Virus record (IMG/VR): IMGVR_UViG_3300025128_000452
Coordinates: 1 to 20,336 of that record
Strand: one strand, 5' to 3'
From: a virus
Length of the DNA stretch: 20,336 bases
Of this stretch, positions 759 to 20,018 are shown in pieces. Below the pieces are notes generated by a model that was given only the letters and a program-made list of their open reading frames with translations, searched no databases and had not been told where the DNA came from. The position numbers and the translations under genes are program-made. The stretch's first letter is position 1. Each line of letters starts with the position of its first letter.

Positions 759-1187
759 CTAATCACTTTGCCAACTTATTTCTATCTTCTTATCATCGCT
801 ATCAGTTATAGATAGAGTTTGTTTTTCTGTGCCATAATACTTAGGAGCAAGTTTCCCTGCCTTCCATTGCATATTCTTACTATATACTTCCAGTAGCTTT
901 ACCTCCGACATACTGATCTTTTGTTTGTCTAAGGCATTCTCTATTCGTTTATCTATATCTCCAATAACATATTCTATGCCGAGTTCTTTGCTGCGAACAT
1001 AGGCATCCTTCAGCTTATCATCCTTTAAGATCCAATTCCTCCAGGACTGCCAAGTTATACCACATTCTTTTACTGCATCTCTTATGCTTATACCACGAGA
1101 GAGCTTGTCCAGTATCTCTTTAACAATTGACTTGGAATACTTGGTCGGTCTCCCTTTTTTAACTGGAATGATTTGTTGATTAGACAT
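759..1187 (-). CDS. terS: Terminase small subunit
   Basis: This 142-aa protein resembles phage terminase small subunits: the DNA-recognition part of the packaging motor, which binds the pac/cos site and hands DNA to the large subunit. The basic N-terminus carries KKGRPTKYS. A helix-turn-helix follows at about residues 20-52 (SIRDAVKECGIT then WRNWI), and then a helical oligomerisation region with a K-E-rich, AYVRSKELG-type segment typical of these proteins. The ATG overlaps the upstream stop as TAATG, so translation is probably coupled. It is the last gene of a three-gene leftward group. The large subunit is not in the window and would be expected beyond the left edge. Confidence 0.85.
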   Translation of the reverse strand: MSNQQIIPVKKGRPTKYSKSIVKEILDKLSRGISIRDAVKECGITWQSWRNWILKDDKLKDAYVRSKELGIEYVIGDIDKRIENALDKQKISMSEVKLLEVYSKNMQWKAGKLAPKYYGTEKQTLSITDSDDKKIEISWQSD

Positions 1188-1384
1188 TAGTGTAGTGTTA
1201 CCTTTTCATCCAATGGCTGCATATACTCTGTGTATTCTGGTAAGCTCTTGAAGTATTGGGCAAATTGTATTGCTTCTTCTTCAGTCTTAAAGTTTGCAAA
1301 CCTAATAATTATTTCTGGCTGCTTTGTTTCAGGATTATCTACCATAACCATACTACAATACAGATCGTCTATCAAAAGTTTCAT
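1187..1384 (-). CDS. Small unknown protein in the terminase group
   Basis: This 65-aa product has no recognised family. It looks like a compact alpha/beta protein: hydrophobic strand-like segments (KLLIDDLYCSMVMV, EIIIRFANF) are followed by an acidic helix (TEEEAIQFAQYFKSL). It sits between the upstream 92-codon gene, which it overlaps by 32 nt, and the small terminase gene, with which it shares a TAATG. The tight tiling on both sides argues that it is truly translated and co-regulated with packaging. Confidence 0.65.
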   Translation of the reverse strand: MKLLIDDLYCSMVMVDNPETKQPEIIIRFANFKTEEEAIQFAQYFKSLPEYTEYMQPLDEKVTLH

Positions 1385-1631
1385 TTAATAAATACCTAAT
1401 GTCCTCCAAAGTAAGATAATGTTTATGCCGATTCATTTGAGTATAAATATCTCTGACTTGGTTTGGCTGCATACCTGCGAGTGAACAAATAAAACTGAAA
1501 TCTTTGCTTGTAAGCCAGTCTTTAGCTTCCTGCTCGTATTTGGTATTCAACCTCGTCATCCAAAGGAATTTTCCTAAAGCATCGGTTAAACCCTGCACAA
1601 GAACAGCAATCCAAAGTTTCTGTTCTGACAT
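1353..1631 (-). CDS. Conserved small phage protein of unknown function
   Basis: This is a 92-aa helical protein. The N-terminal LWIAVLVQGLTDAL and the middle AKDWLTSKDFSFICSLAG follow a pattern I know from small phage proteins encoded just before terminase genes (tryptophan-rich helix, then W-L/F-x-S and CSLAG). The role of that family is not known to me. The ATG at 1631 lies only three bases from the T-run of an intrinsic-terminator-like hairpin, so expression should depend on read-through. There is no clear Shine-Dalgarno site. A later start at the internal ATG near residue 25 would remove the conserved N-terminus and is less likely. Confidence 0.65.
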   Translation of the reverse strand: MSEQKLWIAVLVQGLTDALGKFLWMTRLNTKYEQEAKDWLTSKDFSFICSLAGMQPNQVRDIYTQMNRHKHYLTLEDIRYLLNETFDRRSVL

Positions 1632-1634
1632 AAT

Positions 1635-1660
1635 AAAAAAACCATCTTTAAAAGATGGCT
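1635..1660 (-). terminator. Intrinsic terminator immediately before the terminase group
   Basis: Read leftward, GCCATCTTT and AAAGATGG form a hairpin (perfect inverted repeat 1642-1658) followed directly by seven T residues (1641-1635). This is a standard Rho-independent terminator. It lies downstream of the promoter at 1723-1695 and just before the ATG at 1631. It therefore blocks rather than ends the packaging genes unless polymerase is made termination-resistant. Confidence 0.75.
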
Positions 1661-1694
1661 ATAAAACTATTCACAATTATAGTGAGTGTATATA

Positions 1695-1723
1695 TTTATA
1701 AGGATTTACGATTGATTTGTTAA
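1695..1723 (-). promoter_or_regulatory. Sigma-70-type late promoter candidate with promoter-proximal -10-like element
   Basis: Read leftward, TTAACA (1723-1718) and TATAAA (1700-1695) are separated by exactly 17 bp, each 5/6 to consensus. Transcription would start near 1689-1687. A perfect TATAAT (1681-1676) lies about +7 to +14 in the early transcribed region. The terminator at 1660-1635 follows after a leader of about 50 nt. Confidence 0.5.
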
Positions 1724-1741: not shown

Positions 1742-2242
1742 TTACATATCGTAATATAAGATTAATCGATCAAGAGCTTCTCGAAGTTCATCCATTCTTT
1801 TTTGAGCAGGTTGATTTCTTACAATGACTAACCACAATACATCCCAGAACTTTCCTATCTCTTTAATAATAATATGAAATTCACTATGAGCATCTATGTT
1901 TCTATGGACAAAATCCTCTTTAGTGCCACCAATAAACTCTTCTAGTCTAGCTGTAATCTTTGGCTCTAATCCTGATCTATGGCATAATTTTTCAAATTTA
2001 TCTCCTGCCCAAAATCTTTTACTATTTAATTCTCTATCCTTGATGTCCAATAATCCTCTAGCATAATAGTTTTCTAATACTGAATTATGTACTTTTTCTA
2101 AATGTCTATCTTGACCATAAAAAGCAAATCTAAATTTTTCTCCATCAACTTTCCTGGTTAATGTGCCATCTTCATTTCTCTCTAGTTCTTGGCTGCCAAG
2201 TTCAATGGGAACTCTATCTTTTTTCTTTTTTTTAGACACCAC
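1742..2242 (-). CDS. Unknown phage protein, possible DUF6456-like; antiterminator candidate by position
   Basis: I chose GTG 2242 because GAGGG lies 5 nt upstream; a second GTG at 2239 is equally possible and an ATG at 2266 is too far from any ribosome site. The product is about 166 aa. It has a lysine-rich N-terminus (SKKKKKDR), a strand-rich part (TRKVDGEKFRFAFYGQ), then helices with AGDKFEKLCHRSGLEPKIT, and a C-terminal helix ending ALDRLILYY. The segment of the form AG-x-F/L...GL-x-P-x-x-T, together with the C-terminal ALDRL-x-x-YY, recalls the alphaproteobacterial DUF6456 family, whose function is unknown to me. It overlaps the PAPS-reductase-like gene and directly precedes the promoter-terminator pair, the place where lambda encodes antiterminator Q. 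That role is a guess from position only. Confidence 0.7.
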   Translation of the reverse strand: MVSKKKKKDRVPIELGSQELERNEDGTLTRKVDGEKFRFAFYGQDRHLEKVHNSVLENYYARGLLDIKDRELNSKRFWAGDKFEKLCHRSGLEPKITARLEEFIGGTKEDFVHRNIDAHSEFHIIIKEIGKFWDVLWLVIVRNQPAQKRMDELREALDRLILYYDM

Positions 2243-3807: not shown

Positions 3808-4464
3808 TTAAATTAACAATCCCTGTGTGGTAATATTGGTATCTGTTTTATAATTTTTGTTTTGAAACTTGGGATAATCAGAAATTGGATATTTAAGTTT
3901 TTTTAAAAGATTTTTTTTATCTTTTTTGTTTGCTAACACATAGATATACCTGTGTTTTCTTGGTCTATCTACTACATAAAATTTATCTGGATTATCTTTT
4001 CTTTCTTTTAAAGAGTATTGTTCTTGAACTGTTTTATTGTGTTTATTAGAATTTTTTTGTCTCCATTCAGTTCTTTTATCCGATAAACCAGTATAAATAA
4101 AATTTGTTGCTTGATAAATATAACCATTATGATTTTGGCTAGTGTCTGCATAAGAAACAATAATTGATGGTTTTTTTAAAAATTTAAAAGAATTTGCAAC
4201 TAAATAAGATGCTTCATTTTTTATGTTATTTTTTAAAACTAATCTGTTTAACTCTAAAACTATATTTTTATATGCATCTCCAGCTATTCCTCTACATAAT
4301 GCTTGTGATGGTGGAGAGCCATAAGTAACAATACCAACCAATTCACTTTCTTTAAACAAACCAAAAGAATGAGTTATGCTTGGTAATCTTTTTGCATAAT
4401 GAATATGTAAAATAAATGGCTTTGTATCGCTATATGAAATAGGCAAAACTTTATAACCTTTCAT
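3808..4464 (-). CDS. mom: Mom-like DNA modification protein (GNAT-type fold)
   Basis: This 218-aa protein resembles Mom of phage Mu and its many phage relatives. Mu Mom modifies adenine to N6-methylcarbamoyl adenine and protects DNA from restriction. Family marks are SFGLFKESELVGIVTYGSPPS (about residues 33-53), VLELNRLVLKN (near 70), ASYLVANSFKFL, IIVSYADTSQNHNGYIYQATNF (near 100-121) with YTGLSDKR, and a basic C-terminal segment KHRYIYVLANKKDKK. Unlike Mu mom, it is encoded in an early-looking operon, overlapping the winged-helix gene by 14 nt and followed by replication genes. No separate regulator resembling Mu Com is visible. Activity on this phage's own DNA is inferred. Confidence 0.8.
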   Translation of the reverse strand: MKGYKVLPISYSDTKPFILHIHYAKRLPSITHSFGLFKESELVGIVTYGSPPSQALCRGIAGDAYKNIVLELNRLVLKNNIKNEASYLVANSFKFLKKPSIIVSYADTSQNHNGYIYQATNFIYTGLSDKRTEWRQKNSNKHNKTVQEQYSLKERKDNPDKFYVVDRPRKHRYIYVLANKKDKKNLLKKLKYPISDYPKFQNKNYKTDTNITTQGLLI

Positions 4465-4726
4465 TTGCTAATTCTTTAACAATAACCAGATTTCGCTTTG
4501 TATATGGCTTTTTGACTATATATTGCTTGTGTTGTAATGCCTCTAGGTGCATAAAAACAGAGCTTGGTGTCTTATAACCCAACCCAGTCATTATATCCCT
4601 TACAGCAGGGCATTTTGCGTGTTTATCCCTATATTCTCTTATAAATTTAAGAACTTTAAGCTGCTTATCAGTTAAATTTTCAGCGACATCCATTGTCTTA
4701 TTACATAAATTACATTTTATTTTCAT
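4451..4726 (-). CDS. LexA-type winged-helix DNA-binding protein lacking a protease domain
   Basis: This 91-aa protein is almost entirely a LexA DNA-binding domain: LTDKQLKVLKFIREYRDKH, PAVRDIMTGLGYKTPSSVFMHLEAL and a short wing. The S24 autoprotease half is absent. A short N-terminal CNLCNK (Cys at 5 and 8) could bind metal. It is the first gene leftward from the divergent control region, opposite the XRE repressor, so it is in the Cro or second-regulator position. The start ATG at 4726 has no strong Shine-Dalgarno site. It probably regulates the leftward operon or the divergent promoter; targets are unknown. Confidence 0.75.
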   Translation of the reverse strand: MKIKCNLCNKTMDVAENLTDKQLKVLKFIREYRDKHAKCPAVRDIMTGLGYKTPSSVFMHLEALQHKQYIVKKPYTKRNLVIVKELANERL

Positions 4727-7312: not shown

Positions 7313-7560
7313 GTGAGGATAAAAAATTTATAGGTGGTTTCTGGGCAAACGAGCCAAAGGTAGATTTTATTAAATGCAGCATAAACATTAAGAAAAAAGA
7401 TTTTGTCGATTGGTTACGAAAACAAGATCCTAATGATGAGTATGTTAAAATTGATGTTAAGGTAGGAAAAACTGGCAATTGGTATGCAGAAAAAAATAAC
7501 TGGAAACCAAAACCAAAAGAAGAAAAGCCAGACATCAATACAGATTTTAGTAAATTTTAA
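7309..7560 (+). CDS. Small conserved phage protein in the recombination operon
   Basis: The product is 83 aa, ATGA-coupled to erf. It opens with KFIGGFWANEPK, a strand-rich middle (FIKCSINIKKKDFVDWLRKQ, then EYVKIDVKVGKTGNWYAEKNNWKP) and an acidic-basic tail. Proteins opening with K-F-I-G-G-F-W are familiar to me from marine phages beside ERF or RecT-like genes. The fold may be a small beta barrel; a role with single-stranded DNA is a guess. No catalytic motif is visible. Confidence 0.65.
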   Translation: MSEDKKFIGGFWANEPKVDFIKCSINIKKKDFVDWLRKQDPNDEYVKIDVKVGKTGNWYAEKNNWKPKPKEEKPDINTDFSKF

Positions 7561-7910
7561 TGACTGAAGAATTTACAAAAGAAGAGGTTAAGATTTTGAA
7601 AAGGATATGTGAAAATCCTATCTTTAAAGAGTCCCAACCTCTTCCTGAAAATGTAGGCAAAGCACCACAACCATTACATCATTTAAAAAAAATAATTTGT
7701 AATTTTTATAATATTAAAGAAGAAGATTTATCAGGAACTAGAAGAGATAAACATTTTGTTCAAGCTAGAAGAGATTACTGCCACTTGGCTTTTAAGAACA
7801 CTAAATTTAGCACAACAATAATTGGGAATAAAATTAAAAAAGATTCTTCATCAGTTTTACACCATCTCAACAAACAGCCATTCAACATAGACAAGATTTT
7901 AAATGATTAA
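7560..7910 (+). CDS. Stand-alone DnaA domain IV-like DNA-binding protein
   Basis: In this 116-aa protein, residues 40-112 match the C-terminal helix-turn-helix domain of the initiator DnaA. Marks are an initial helix with IICNFYNIKEEDLSG, the basic loop TRRDKHFVQARRDYCHLAF (the DnaA RRxxxVxARxxAxYL-type signature) and a last helix DSSSVLHHL. In DnaA this domain reads DnaA boxes. There is no ATPase domain. It may bind phage or host origin sites as an initiator partner or a decoy. The start ATG overlaps the upstream TAA (TAATG), and the stop region overlaps the next ATG. Confidence 0.8.
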   Translation: MTEEFTKEEVKILKRICENPIFKESQPLPENVGKAPQPLHHLKKIICNFYNIKEEDLSGTRRDKHFVQARRDYCHLAFKNTKFSTTIIGNKIKKDSSSVLHHLNKQPFNIDKILND

Positions 7911-10029: not shown

Positions 10030-10228
10030 ACTTTATGAGATAAAAGATGTAGCAGTTAGATTAAATAGACATCCTCGCACTTGCAGGAAAGATATTAAAG
10101 ACTTACAAGCCAAATTTCCCAAAGATCCTGCTTTACATACATATATTGGTAAGCGATTACGATTTACCAATGAACATATTGAAAGGATAATTGTGTTATG
10201 CTCAAAGTCAAAAGAAGAAAAGATGTAA
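10022..10228 (+). CDS. Excisionase-like small helix-turn-helix protein
   Basis: I prefer the start ATG 10022, because GAGG lies 6 nt upstream and the ATG overlaps the previous stop (ATGAATAG); the frame could open 8 codons earlier at 9998. The 68-aa product begins MNRLYEIKDVAVRLNRHPRT and continues as a MerR/AlpA-type winged helix with IGKRLRFTNEHIERII. This is the pattern of phage excisionases and helix_turn_helix_17-type proteins. It directly precedes and overlaps the integrase gene by 31 nt, which supports a role in excision or int control. Confidence 0.65.
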   Translation: MNRLYEIKDVAVRLNRHPRTCRKDIKDLQAKFPKDPALHTYIGKRLRFTNEHIERIIVLCSKSKEEKM

Positions 10229-11265
10229 AGAATGATAATTATTATATATTTGGAACTTTTTATTATGAAGATCAAACTATATATGTAAGGAACATCAGCA
10301 CTAAAACAAACAAATACCAAGATGCTTGTAAGTTCGCAAACATTTATGAGAAAAAACTAGAAAAAGGAATATCTCAACTTACAAGTAAAAAATATAATGC
10401 TGCTGCTGATTTAAAGATTGCTGACGATGATCCAGATACATCTCCATCGCAGAAAACTATTAAGTTAGTAAAAAAAACAAAAGAATATCTAGGTCAATAT
10501 GACATCCGATTAATTGATAATGATTTGATTCGCAAAAAAGCATTTGAATGTTATCCAATGGAAGAATATTTAAAAAAGACTCCTTATAATGATTTGTCGG
10601 AAGAAGAGAAAAAACGAAAATCAGCAAGACTTAATACAATTAATAGAAGTTTTATTTGCCCTGTGTCGTTGGTGTTAAACTTTGCATCAGCAAAAAGATT
10701 GTGTGAAAAAATGGTTATTAATAGATTTAAACTTATTGAAAGAGATCCACTATATTTTACTCCTGAAGAAGTGGAAAAATGTTTGCAATCAACAAGTATG
10801 TTCCAAATTAAATTATTAATGGTTTTTTTAATTTATACTGGTGCAAGATTACAAGAAGCTCTGAACACCAAATGGGAAGATATACAAGACAACAAAATTC
10901 ATTTATGGGAAAATAAAGGCGATAAAGCTAGAGTTGTAGAACTACATAAAAATTTAAAAGAATGGCTTGATAAAGTTAATGATAAAGGAAAATATATTTT
11001 TATGTGGAGAAAAGCATGGGATAATAAAAAAGATGGCGAGGGATTATATTTTAATTGGAGAGATATGCTTCGACAAGCTAATATAAGTTTTGAGAAAACT
11101 CCTCATAAGTGCCGACATACATTTGCAACTTGGTTAAGAAAATATGCTAATTGTGATTTGCAGGATTTAAAAGACATTGGTGGTTGGAAAGATAGTAAAA
11201 GTGTTGAGGTGTATTCTCACATTATGCCTGATACAATGCCAAAAAAAATTAATTTATTGCCCTAA
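10198..11265 (+). CDS. int: Tyrosine-type site-specific integrase
   Basis: This 355-aa protein has the full catalytic set of tyrosine recombinases: Arg217 in LIYTGARLQEAL, Lys243 in NKGDKARVVEL, His303-x2-Arg306 in HKCRHTFATW, Trp330 in GGWKDSKS and the nucleophile Tyr339 in VYSHI. The first 60 residues are strand-rich and basic, in the place of an arm-binding domain, followed by a core-binding helical region. AAAGGA lies 10 nt before ATG 10198. It catalyses insertion into and, with the excisionase-like protein, removal from the host chromosome. The gene is at the end of the rightward operon, followed by noncoding DNA that probably includes attP. Confidence 0.9.
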   Translation: MLKVKRRKDVKNDNYYIFGTFYYEDQTIYVRNISTKTNKYQDACKFANIYEKKLEKGISQLTSKKYNAAADLKIADDDPDTSPSQKTIKLVKKTKEYLGQYDIRLIDNDLIRKKAFECYPMEEYLKKTPYNDLSEEEKKRKSARLNTINRSFICPVSLVLNFASAKRLCEKMVINRFKLIERDPLYFTPEEVEKCLQSTSMFQIKLLMVFLIYTGARLQEALNTKWEDIQDNKIHLWENKGDKARVVELHKNLKEWLDKVNDKGKYIFMWRKAWDNKKDGEGLYFNWRDMLRQANISFEKTPHKCRHTFATWLRKYANCDLQDLKDIGGWKDSKSVEVYSHIMPDTMPKKINLLP

Positions 11266-14442: not shown

Positions 14443-14517
14443 GCTGTTGTAGCTTAGTGGTAAAGCACTTGCTTGGTAAGTAAGAGATCGAGGTTTCGAT
14501 TACCTCCAACAGCACCA
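14443..14517 (+). tRNA. trnT: tRNA-Thr (anticodon GGU)
   Basis: The cloverleaf is complete: acceptor stem GCTGTTG/CAACAGC, D stem GCTT/AAGC, anticodon stem CTTGC/GTAAG (one G-T pair) with loop TTGGTAA, T stem GAGGT/ACCTC with loop TTCGATT, then A-CCA encoded. The anticodon is at 14475-14477 and reads ACC and ACT. The G1-C72 and C2-G71 pairs fit threonine identity. It is transcribed against the surrounding late genes, and its CCA end touches the stop codon of the next gene at 14518. Confidence 0.95.
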
Positions 14518-16167: not shown

Positions 16168-16700
16168 TATGCTAATATCTCCGTGCAAGTTAATTGATAT
16201 TGACCACCATCTTGACAAGCATAAACAGCACTACCACTTGAACTTTCATAATATATTTTGTAGCTAATTTCTGAAGTTGATGATGGGCTATCAAGCCATT
16301 CTAAATTTAATGCTGAATAGTTTGTGCCACCTGAACTTGGCTCAACTCTATATAATCCCCAGTTATAAGAATTAGAGCTTAAATTTGTACTATCTCTATA
16401 AAGAGAAAATCTAACCCCTGTATCTGTTGGAGATGCTGCCATTCCAGTGTAAAATCTAATTAGAACTTTTGAAGAAGTTGCAGAACAAGTAATCGTTCTT
16501 GCAATTCCAGTATCTACTGGGGTTGTGCTTGTTGTTGTAATATGACTTGGTACATCAGCAACTTGAGTAACAACTAATTGACCCATTTTTCCTGCCGAAA
16601 GATTTGTTAATGCACTTCCATTAATAGCAGGTAAATTACCAGTTAATATTGTTGCATCTAAAGCTGATGCTGACCTTGCATTAAGTTTTGTTAGTGCCAT
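16167..16700 (-). CDS. Tail fibre/appendage protein (177 aa)
   Basis: The N-terminal part (ARSASALDATILTGNLPAIN) resembles the repeat-type linker of phage fibres. Residues 37-177 form a beta-rich C-terminal domain with GKMGQLVV, ITCSATSSKVLI, FSLYRDSTNL, LEWLDSPSSTSEISYKIYY and a final TCTEILA. The same landmarks occur in the same order in the 288-aa fibre at 19152-20018, so the two share a receptor-facing module. GGAG lies 8 nt upstream of the ATG, which overlaps the preceding fibre's stop. Probably a receptor-binding appendage. Confidence 0.75.
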   Translation of the reverse strand: MALTKLNARSASALDATILTGNLPAINGSALTNLSAGKMGQLVVTQVADVPSHITTTSTTPVDTGIARTITCSATSSKVLIRFYTGMAASPTDTGVRFSLYRDSTNLSSNSYNWGLYRVEPSSGGTNYSALNLEWLDSPSSTSEISYKIYYESSSGSAVYACQDGGQYQLTCTEILA

Positions 16701-17941
16701 TATTTATTCTCCAATGCTGTTACTTTAGTTTCTAAAGTTTCTATTTTTGTTATTGCTTCTTGTAATGCTCCAGTTAATAATGGAACTAATTTTGCTTGGT
16801 CAATACCTTGATATTTAGGAATAGTATTCCCATCATTATCTAATTTATTTGTACCATCTTCATTTTTTTCTATTCCATCTTTTTCGCCAATAATTGCTTC
16901 TGGAACTATTGAAGAAACCTCATGTGCTAAAAATCCATCTACTAAAGTATTTGTTTCATCTACTATAAAATTAAATCTTGCAGGTTTTAATTGTTTAAGT
17001 CTTGTTGTTGCATCAAAATCATAATTTACATTTTCTTTTAATCTGTAATCAGAAGAAGTTGCATATGTTGTTGTACTATTTGTGCCTGTAATTTGACCAC
17101 AAGTAGAGCCATTTCTATTAAAATTAAGTATATCTCTATTATTATTATCGGCATTTGTTCTAGCAAGAATTAATGGTAAATCTGTATCTGTTGCAATTAT
17201 AGAAGCACTACCATCTGTTAAAATAATTCCGTTATCTCCTGCTTGAGTTAAATTAGAATAAGCTGTTTCAGTTGTTCCTATTGAAACTTGACCACCTTCA
17301 CTAATTCTCATTTTTTCATTACCATTTGGTAAGAATGATAAATGTCCACCATGAACACCTCTTACAAAAGCTATATCGCCAGATGTATTTTTAAATCTTA
17401 AATTAACATCACCATTAGCTGAATCTCTAGTTAATTCTAATGGCTCTGCATCTGAACTTGTAATGTTAACAACACCACTTGCAAAAGTAAAATTAGACTC
17501 ACCCTCTAAAGTATTAGCTGTGCCACTACCTGTAATAACTCTATTGTCTGCGTTATTGTTTATGGTAGTTCCTGCAGCAGCCCAACTATTATCTCCTCTT
17601 AAAAAATTAGAACTACTAGGAGAGCCACTAGCAGATAATTGAGCTAACCCAACTGAATCATCACTCGGTACTCCTACATCTAAAGTATCTCCTAATATTA
17701 AAATAAAATCTATTACATCTGAACTTGTTAATGCACTTGCAAAGGTAATTTGAGATGAAGCTATTGTATATGAATTTCCACTAGATTGAACTACTCCATT
17801 TAAGGAAACTATACATTGATTTTGATTTGGATTAACTGCTACTCCACCAACTAAAAGATTATAAGTTGCTGTGGCAGAGCAGGTTATTGAATCTGCCTTG
17901 CGAAAATTTCCCTTCTCAGGACTATTGCCTATGTAAGCCAT
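16700..17941 (-). CDS. Tail fibre with C-terminal peptidase S74 chaperone domain
   Basis: In this 413-aa protein, the N-terminus MAYIGNSPEKGNF is shared in form with the 288-aa fibre and likely attaches to the tail. Residues 110-125 contain FLRGDNSWAAAG and 140-300 a beta-rich shaft. The S74 intramolecular chaperone domain starts at about 295: SSDYRLKENV with the Ser297-Lys302 dyad spacing, PARFNF, and GFLAHEVSSIVPEAI, ending in a coiled coil. S74 domains trimerise the fibre and cut themselves off. Start has AAGGAG 9 nt upstream. Host recognition is the probable role. Confidence 0.85.
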   Translation of the reverse strand: MAYIGNSPEKGNFRKADSITCSATATYNLLVGGVAVNPNQNQCIVSLNGVVQSSGNSYTIASSQITFASALTSSDVIDFILILGDTLDVGVPSDDSVGLAQLSASGSPSSSNFLRGDNSWAAAGTTINNNADNRVITGSGTANTLEGESNFTFASGVVNITSSDAEPLELTRDSANGDVNLRFKNTSGDIAFVRGVHGGHLSFLPNGNEKMRISEGGQVSIGTTETAYSNLTQAGDNGIILTDGSASIIATDTDLPLILARTNADNNNRDILNFNRNGSTCGQITGTNSTTTYATSSDYRLKENVNYDFDATTRLKQLKPARFNFIVDETNTLVDGFLAHEVSSIVPEAIIGEKDGIEKNEDGTNKLDNDGNTIPKYQGIDQAKLVPLLTGALQEAITKIETLETKVTALENK

Positions 17942-18864: not shown

Positions 18865-19155
18865 TTATTCCTTTGGATTATCTGTTTTTACTTTAGAAAT
18901 AGTATCTTTCCAAATTGTTGTGTTGTTTACTTGATCCCAGTATTGCATATCAAGTTGTTCTTGTATTGATGGATAAGCTGTTTGTCTTTTTGGTATATAA
19001 GCCATAGCTTCCATTTTAGCTTTTATTTCTGCTCTTGATATTTCAGGAGAAGAATCCCATTCAAAAGTACAAGTATCTATATTATCTCCACGAACAGTAA
19101 CTTGAGCATCAGGATTAATAGACATAATTGCATCTCCAATTAAAACTTTTATCAT
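18865..19155 (-). CDS. Tail fibre assembly chaperone-like protein (paralogue)
   Basis: In this 96-aa protein, the N-terminal part is strand-rich (VLIGDAIMSINPDAQVTV, IDTCTFEWDSSPEISRAEI). The C-terminal part YPSIQEQLDMQYWDQVNNTT, followed by WKDTISKVKTDNPKE, parallels the end of the 107-aa protein at 17942-18265. YPS/P-x-x-E-Q-L-D-M-x-Y-W-D is typical of DUF4376/XkdW-like fibre chaperones. ATGA overlap with the fibre gene before it shows coupling. Confidence 0.75.
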   Translation of the reverse strand: MIKVLIGDAIMSINPDAQVTVRGDNIDTCTFEWDSSPEISRAEIKAKMEAMAYIPKRQTAYPSIQEQLDMQYWDQVNNTTIWKDTISKVKTDNPKE

Positions 19156-20018
19156 GCTAGTACCTCCATTAAAGTCATTGTACTCGTACCAGTACCTCCA
19201 CTACCACTACTATTCATTAAGTTAAGTGTAGCAGAGCCATGTTCTGCATATTTAACAGAATAAGTTAGGCTGCTTGTACTCGAAGGTGAATCTAAATATG
19301 AAAAAACCATTGATTGTGTTGCTGTTTGAGATAGTGCGTTATAAACCAATATATCACTATATATTGCTAGTTCTGAACCTGCTCTATAAATTCTAAGTTC
19401 AGCATAACTATTAGCCGCACTAGACATAAGAGCTGGACAAACATAATGAAAATAAACTTTAGATGAAGTAGCAGAAGGTGTAATTGAAGCAGTTAAGGCT
19501 GAAGCTGTTAATGTGCCAGATGTAAAAGTTTCAGCACTACTTAAAGTTTCAGAAACAACTTGTCCTATTTTTCCCAAACCTTTTATATGACTATAATCTA
19601 CTCTTTTTAAAACTCCTGCATCAGATACTAATAATTCATCAGTATCGGCAGGTGTTGCTCCAAGAGCAGTTTGTGCTGATATAACATCAGTATTAAGTTT
19701 TGCTCCTGTAACAGCATTTGCTTGAAGCATAGCTGTTGTAACTGAATCACTTGCAGGAGAAACTGTGCCTACTGTTTTTCCTAAATAAACACAATACATT
19801 TCGTCTGTTCCTGCTGTTGCAGAAGTTAAAGTCAATGCTGTGCCAGATACAGTATAAGCATCAACTGGACTTTGACGAACATTATTTATAAACAGAGCAA
19901 TATCCTGAGTTGAGGATACAGCACTATCTAAAGTGTATGATGTCGTTGCTGATGTACTAAAATTTTGTTTTGCTAAAGTTAAAAATTTATCAGCAGGTGT
20001 GTTTCCAATATAGGGCAT
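19152..20018 (-). CDS. Tail fibre protein (288 aa)
   Basis: The N-terminus MPYIGNTPADKFLTLAKQNF, followed by a strand-rich attachment domain to about residue 85 (VSSTQDIALFINNVRQSP, DEMYCVYLG), is the common anchor of marine phage fibres. A linker with DSVTTAMLQANAVTGAKLNT (91-110) leads into the terminal domain at 149-288: GKIGQVVSETL, ITPSATSSKVYF, LRIYRAGSEL, FSYLDSPSSTSSLTYSV and MTLMEVLA. GGAG lies 7 nt upstream of the ATG. It probably binds the host surface and shares its tip module with the 177-aa appendage. Confidence 0.85.
   Translation of the reverse strand: MPYIGNTPADKFLTLAKQNFSTSATTSYTLDSAVSSTQDIALFINNVRQSPVDAYTVSGTALTLTSATAGTDEMYCVYLGKTVGTVSPASDSVTTAMLQANAVTGAKLNTDVISAQTALGATPADTDELLVSDAGVLKRVDYSHIKGLGKIGQVVSETLSSAETFTSGTLTASALTASITPSATSSKVYFHYVCPALMSSAANSYAELRIYRAGSELAIYSDILVYNALSQTATQSMVFSYLDSPSSTSSLTYSVKYAEHGSATLNLMNSSGSGGTGTSTMTLMEVLA

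Follow-up and report, generated by a model that had tools for sequence, protein, structure and literature searches.

Organization of the locus

The window analyzed in this work, that is, the whole stretch of DNA, is 20,336 bases long and makes up an entire virus record of IMG/VR, which is possibly only part of a genome. A DUF1376-like gene is located upstream of o166, and on the minus strand o166 is followed by a promoter-like sequence, an additional -10-like hexamer, a predicted hairpin-type terminator, and an operon that includes the gene for the terminase small subunit (Table 1). The first-pass annotation had described this array as TTAACA-17-TATAAA, TATAAT, and a hairpin with seven T residues before an ATG, and all of these elements were confirmed on the minus strand at the positions listed in Table 1.

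Table 1. Coordinates of the promoter-terminator array and of the genes discussed in the text.
Feature	Position	Strand	Remarks
-35 element TTAACA	1718..1723	(-)	5/6 matches to TTGACA; same in 16/16 relatives
Promoter spacer, 17 bp	1701..1717	(-)	conserved in relatives; candidate antiterminator-binding element
-10 element TATAAA	1695..1700	(-)	TATAAC in L006, L007
-10-like TATAAT in initially transcribed region	1676..1681	(-)	proposed sigma-dependent pause element
Leader stretch from pause-like element to hairpin, not conserved	1661..1670	(-)	3-9/10 identical in relatives
Predicted intrinsic terminator, hairpin and seven T	1635..1660	(-)	3 nt upstream of ATG
92-aa gene, first behind terminator	1353..1631	(-)	conserved in 16 relatives
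65-aa ORF, second gene of late operon	1187..1384	(-)	conserved in relatives
Terminase small subunit	759..1187	(-)	Pfam PF20901 E 2.2e-11; phrog_1482 E 2.6e-17
o166, proposed late antiterminator	1742..2242	(-)	putative remote homologue of DUF6456/GafZ
DnaA domain IV protein	7560..7910	(+)	Pfam PF08299 E 2.8e-12

The -10 element, whether TATAAA or TATAAC, deviates from the consensus in its last base. The promoter spacer contains a consensus core, CRATYG, at 1714-1709, and the position of this spacer element agrees with that of the ZBE, ABE, and QBE of known systems (PMC11150451, PMC9371919). If the predicted +1 near 1688 is taken as the start, the TATAAT at 1681-1676 would be located at about +8 to +13. 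The hairpin begins at 1660, the seven-T run occupies 1641-1635, and the ATG follows at 1631-1629. The 63-nt leader folds with -14.7 kcal/mol (z -3.6), a value that was equalled by 0 of 200 shuffles, and the hairpin of the array is modest (-7 to -10 kcal/mol). Because the distance from the T-run to the start codon is only 3-8 nt across the window and its relatives, a second promoter does not fit there, and late transcripts from the array promoter or from further upstream must therefore cross the hairpin. In the relative L002, the small terminase gene is followed by ORFs that were read by eye as a large terminase and a portal.

Among the other genes in the window, a Mom-like DNA modification gene (3808-4464, minus strand; PF25680, E 9e-39) overlaps a gene at 4451-4726 on the same strand, whose product is small and carries a LexA DNA-binding domain. 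A tyrosine integrase gene is located at 10198-11265, and a tRNA-Thr (ggt) gene at 14443-14517 on the plus strand lies amid minus-strand genes and is possibly an attachment-site remnant or a phage-borne tRNA. The products of 16700-17941 and 19152-20018 (minus strand), with the similar starts MAYIGNSP and MPYIGNTP, are probably tail-fibre-like paralogues, and the region with which the protein encoded at 16700-17941 ends looks like an endosialidase chaperone.

Conservation of the promoter-terminator array

Lone promoter-like or terminator-like sites were found at chance frequency in the AT-rich window, and therefore neither kind of site means much by itself. When the -35 and -10 elements (each at least 5/6) were required together with a hairpin and T-run within 60 nt, this combination was found once in the window, at the array, and in 18 of 100 dinucleotide shuffles. 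With an extra -10-like hexamer added to the rule, the array was again the only instance in the window, and 2 of 100 dinucleotide shuffles had one. At the level of sequence, the strongest evidence for the array being real is its conservation in relatives. Sixteen relatives carrying the leader were available, nine found via the 92-aa gene and seven more via o166, and the array was kept in all of those having the downstream gene (16/16). The first-pass annotation had stated that its reading would be refuted if relatives lacked the terminator, and it was missing in 0 of the 16. That annotation had also singled out the TATAAT downstream of the promoter, and a -10-like sequence is indeed found in every relative at this position, but the hexamer is not invariant, being replaced by TAGAAT in the L026-L028/L031 group.

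The comparison with the distant relatives L026, L029, and L032, in which the o166 protein is 71-75% identical, was used to distinguish the parts of the array from their surroundings. In these relatives, 22-23 of 29 positions are identical in the -35 to -10 region, 20 of 24 in the region 1694-1671, which holds the TATAAT or TAGAAT (20-24 of 24 in the relatives as a whole), and 24-25 of 28 in the hairpin and T-run. In contrast, only 3-6 of 10 positions are identical in the stretch 1670-1661, and 29-53% of third codon positions are identical in matching codons of the neighbouring genes. The hairpin is retained in the relatives despite small sequence changes (dG -6.8 to -10.2 kcal/mol). Since the parts of the array are more alike than both the intervening 10 nt and the third codon positions, each of them, namely the promoter, the start region with TATAAT or TAGAAT, and the terminator, is by this measure under selection, with drift between them. 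The order of promoter, -10-like element, terminator, and terminase operon to which attention had been drawn is thus real and maintained by selection. A palindrome over the -35 element, TTTGTT-N6-AACAAA, was considered as the key element and rejected, since it is perfect in the window and close relatives and lost in the L026-L032 group.

In L003, L004, L028, and L031, additional DNA with an ORF separates o166 from the leader, and the leader is still intact. The interval separating o166 from the late promoter is an insertion hotspot, with different small ORFs in several relatives (L003 1275-1870; L004 1153-1740; L028 3522-3890; L031 3483-4300) and a related ORF common to L004 and L031.

Similarity of o166 to DUF6456 proteins

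With o166 alone, no useful E-value was obtained in Pfam or PHROGs, nothing relevant was found in INPHARED, the genome contigs database gave no match, and 385 alphaproteobacterial genomes gave a single weak match (E 0.02). There was also no match of o166 itself to PF20057 (DUF6456), the curated Pfam cut-off not being reached, and sub-threshold matches to DUF6456 were seen for 2 of 14 o166 relatives (best E 0.21). DUF6456 is an annotation carried by GafA homologues (PMC9638019), and GafZ is the counterpart of the C-terminal part of GafA (PMC9632790). A DUF6456 probe that is an approximate consensus brought up, in alphaproteobacterial genomes, a class of DUF6456-like proteins that are short, with a length of about 160-260 aa, and only matches confirmed with Pfam were used. 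A profile of 16 of these short proteins matched o166 (E 2e-10, Z=1000) and all of its relatives and no other ORF in the window, and the best E-value among 500 shuffled o166 sequences was 0.24. Alignment of o166 with the short proteins by hhalign gave 95.5% (E 1.5e-8), the alignment with DUF6456 spans the entire domain, and in the reverse search with 1,230 ORFs the short DUF6456-like proteins ranked first. These profile comparisons indicate that o166 is remotely homologous to DUF6456, which forms the C-terminal domain of GafA/GafZ; because it falls below the PF20057 cut-off, it is called a remote homologue here and not a member of the Pfam family.

The AlphaFold model of o166 had a pLDDT of 47 with close relatives alone in the alignment and 74.8 with DUF6456 rows included. 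The model matched a viral DUF6456 protein in Foldseek with an E-value of 3e-5, which is not independent support, since the alignment behind the model contained DUF6456 rows. No match to o166 was found in the PDB by sequence or fold, and the model resembles no solved antiterminator. Pfam scans with a cut-off as lax as E 10 gave no match of o166 to Q21 (PF06530), and the Q21 profile had no match in the window or in seven other phage records, with positive controls. Lambda-Q (PF03589) likewise did not match o166 in Pfam scans or any of 8 records in a six-frame search with a working control, and neither o166 nor its relatives matched Q82 (PF06323) in Pfam scans. By these searches, o166 belongs to none of the Q21, lambda-Q, and Q82 families.

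Short DUF6456-like genes in other phages and prophages

In the Bradyrhizobium phage ppBeUSDA76-2 (OP596614.1), a DUF6456-like gene (WAX24407.1) is flanked by a DUF1376 gene and the gene for the large terminase, and a hairpin-T terminator follows it. Three prophage proteins were used as queries against isolated phages and gave no match, and the matching PHROGs entries, phrog_31762 and phrog_21451, are listed as unknown function. A survey with eight terminase seeds covered 63 loci with short DUF6456-like genes (43 and 20 previously unseen). A large terminase was found at 21 of these loci, in all 21 cases downstream of the DUF6456-like gene and on the same strand, and these terminases come from several TerL families. 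A strict signature, with under 45 nt from the end of the terminator to the next ORF start, was found behind 10 of 43 DUF6456-like genes versus 68 of 1028 controls (p 6e-4), behind 7 of 18 near a terminase, and, with the rule unchanged, at 5 of the 20 previously unseen loci versus 32 of 537 controls (p 0.007), where loci from the same genome or genus are not fully independent. It was missing at 48 of 63 loci; either the leader layout is enriched at DUF6456-like loci rather than universal, or the rule is strict. Any terminator within 500 nt of the gene was found at 9 of 22 loci versus 24% of controls, a weak difference. A combined promoter and terminator unit was found at 5 of 43 loci versus 23 of 1001 controls (p 0.0045), but this rule was set after seeing the first batch and found 1 of 20 in the second, and for this reason the terminator-before-start rule was the one applied unchanged to the unseen loci.

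At some loci the arrangement closely reproduces that of the window: TTGACA-17-TACATT in L184, TTGACG-17-TACAAA in L226, and TTGACA-18-TATAAA in L250 are each followed shortly by a hairpin and T-run and then directly by an ORF. The first-pass annotation had named the gene preceding the array as the first antiterminator candidate, and this choice is supported by its DUF6456/GafZ homology and by the same position of such genes in other alphaproteobacterial phages and prophages. At L050, a chromosomal DUF6456 gene lies directly behind a gene for a DnaA domain IV protein, which is the gafYZ arrangement.

Some loci had unusual neighbours. At L230 (4920-6960), the DUF6456-like gene adjoins ORFs of a mobilisation type, which by eye resemble MobC and relaxase genes, and a hairpin-T terminator lies 4 nt ahead of the next ATG; a mobile plasmid or element may use the switch as well. 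At L187 and L189, an ORF resembling a secreted binding protein, an unusual cargo, is located between the DUF6456-like gene and the terminase gene.

Discussion

We consider it probable that the array and o166 together form a phage late-gene switch, in which Q-type processive antitermination is performed by a protein that is unrelated to the Q families and is shared with gene transfer agents (GTAs). Host RNA polymerase (RNAP) with a sigma70-type factor would initiate near 1688 from the promoter at 1723-1695, and sigma rebinding to the -10-like TATAAT would hold the polymerase. Without a helper, the polymerase would halt at the hairpin and T7 run after ~50 nt, leaving the terminase/structural operon off. 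The product of o166, a small DUF6456/GafZ-like protein, would bind the conserved promoter spacer and be handed to the paused polymerase, which would thereby become resistant to the hairpin and to further terminators, so that the late genes would be turned on. As in Q-type systems, the gene lies directly upstream of the putative late promoter and the late genes lie behind the terminator, and a -10-like sequence, TATAAT or TAGAAT, is present in the predicted initially transcribed region of all relatives.

The closest parallel for the protein is GafZ of Caulobacter crescentus, which has been shown experimentally to be the antiterminator of a GTA, acting with RNAP and Nus factors and letting RNAP pass terminators; it requires an element between -10 and -35 and works together with GafY and IHF (PMC11150451). 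The window and the Caulobacter gta promoter have in common a remotely homologous protein domain, a late-type cluster starting with terminase, a candidate binding element between -10 and -35, and terminators to be passed. They differ in that the terminator of the Caulobacter GTA is located behind the first gene, whereas that of the window is in a leader of ~50 nt before the first gene, and in that gafYZ is an operon located elsewhere, whereas o166 stands alone in a phage and adjoins its proposed target. The extra -10-like element was observed in the window and is a further point on which it is set against the gta promoter. The lambdoid phages, whose hosts are enterobacteria, offer a parallel for the layout. 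Their Q genes (PF06530, PF03589, PF06323; PMC7171158) also lie just before the late promoter, with the same order of promoter, -10-like element, terminator, and late genes, but o166 has no sequence match to the Q families and its model no match to a solved structure. It has been reported that the Q systems and AlpA of Pseudomonas aeruginosa need a promoter binding element, a -10-like sequence where transcription begins, in the initially transcribed region, as well as a downstream terminator (PMC9371919), and judged from the sequence, all three have candidate counterparts in the window. AlpA resembles the proposed switch in its element between -10 and -35, for which the window has a candidate, its -10-like pause element, and its intrinsic terminator downstream, and is unlike it in that the protein is unrelated to o166 by the searches made and controls lysis genes of programmed cell death (PMC9371919). 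Phage ppBeUSDA76-2 shares the gene order and the hairpin-T terminator described above; unlike the window, it is GC-rich and very divergent, and a clear promoter was not found between its DUF6456-like gene and the terminator.

Alternatively, o166 might be an activator of the late promoter, with the hairpin being a weak terminator that is crossed by ordinary read-through. GafA, when first described, was taken for an activator, with binding near -10/-35 and a contact to the omega subunit of RNAP (PMC9638019), the imperfect -10 element of the window could make an activator necessary, and the modest hairpin is in favour of this possibility. However, GafZ, which is the homologue of the relevant half of GafA, promotes terminator read-through (PMC11150451), and activation alone leaves the conservation of a hairpin and T-run directly before a start codon unexplained, so that we regard this explanation as unlikely. 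It is also conceivable, and in our opinion quite improbable, that the hairpin is a constitutive attenuator, or a terminator at the end of an early operon that insulates the late genes, and acts without a dedicated phage factor, transcription of the late operon coming from partial read-through or from a promoter within the 92-aa gene. Terminators at operon ends are common, and ~6-7% of control ORFs are followed by one that directly precedes a start codon; against this, the conserved promoter is upstream of the hairpin and not behind it in all relatives, the stretch behind the hairpin is too short to hold a promoter, and the initially transcribed region is conserved as strongly as the promoter.

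An antiterminator other than o166 seems very unlikely to us. The window does encode a DnaA domain IV protein, which is similar in kind to GafY, and GafY accompanies GafZ in Caulobacter (PMC11150451), so that this protein, an unrecognised N-like protein, or another phage or host factor might act at the terminator while o166 has a different role. Yet GafY without GafZ gave no read-through (PMC11150451), and the GafZ-like domain and the conserved position belong to o166. The DnaA domain IV protein, which is of the GafY-type domain/fold family, may function in replication or as a partner to o166. We give practically no credence to a promoter for a T7-type phage RNA polymerase at 1687-1678, where ACTCACTATA is an exact 10-mer of the T7 promoter core; this candidate was rejected because ACTCACTATA occurs as a single copy in the window and is not conserved, the relatives having AATCACTAGAATT or AATCAATATAATT in its place, and no gene for such a polymerase was noticed.

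Antitermination by o166 remains our preferred reading, and it bears on a wider group of genes. The known Q antiterminators belong to three unrelated families from lambdoid phages (PMC7171158). In the open literature, subscription papers and preprints aside, we did not find a phage-wide antiterminator role described for DUF6456/GafZ-like proteins, and the descriptions of GafZ that were surveyed there concern GTAs only. The layout recurring in unrelated alphaproteobacterial prophages looks like that of an unrecognised family of late-gene switches. We lean slightly toward the view that phages have a fourth class of Q antiterminators, hitherto unrecognised, which consists of the short DUF6456-like proteins and is widespread among the phages and prophages of alphaproteobacteria, and that the GTA regulators GafZ and GafA were domesticated from a phage late switch or share ancestry with it. 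With about 90 bp and one small protein, the locus offers a compact template for testing GafZ-type antitermination. Paired with a GafZ-like gene, the conserved leader of promoter, pause element, and terminator would fill the place of the late regulator that is missing in many phages of alphaproteobacteria and, if this is true, would link the control of gene transfer agents to a phage late switch.
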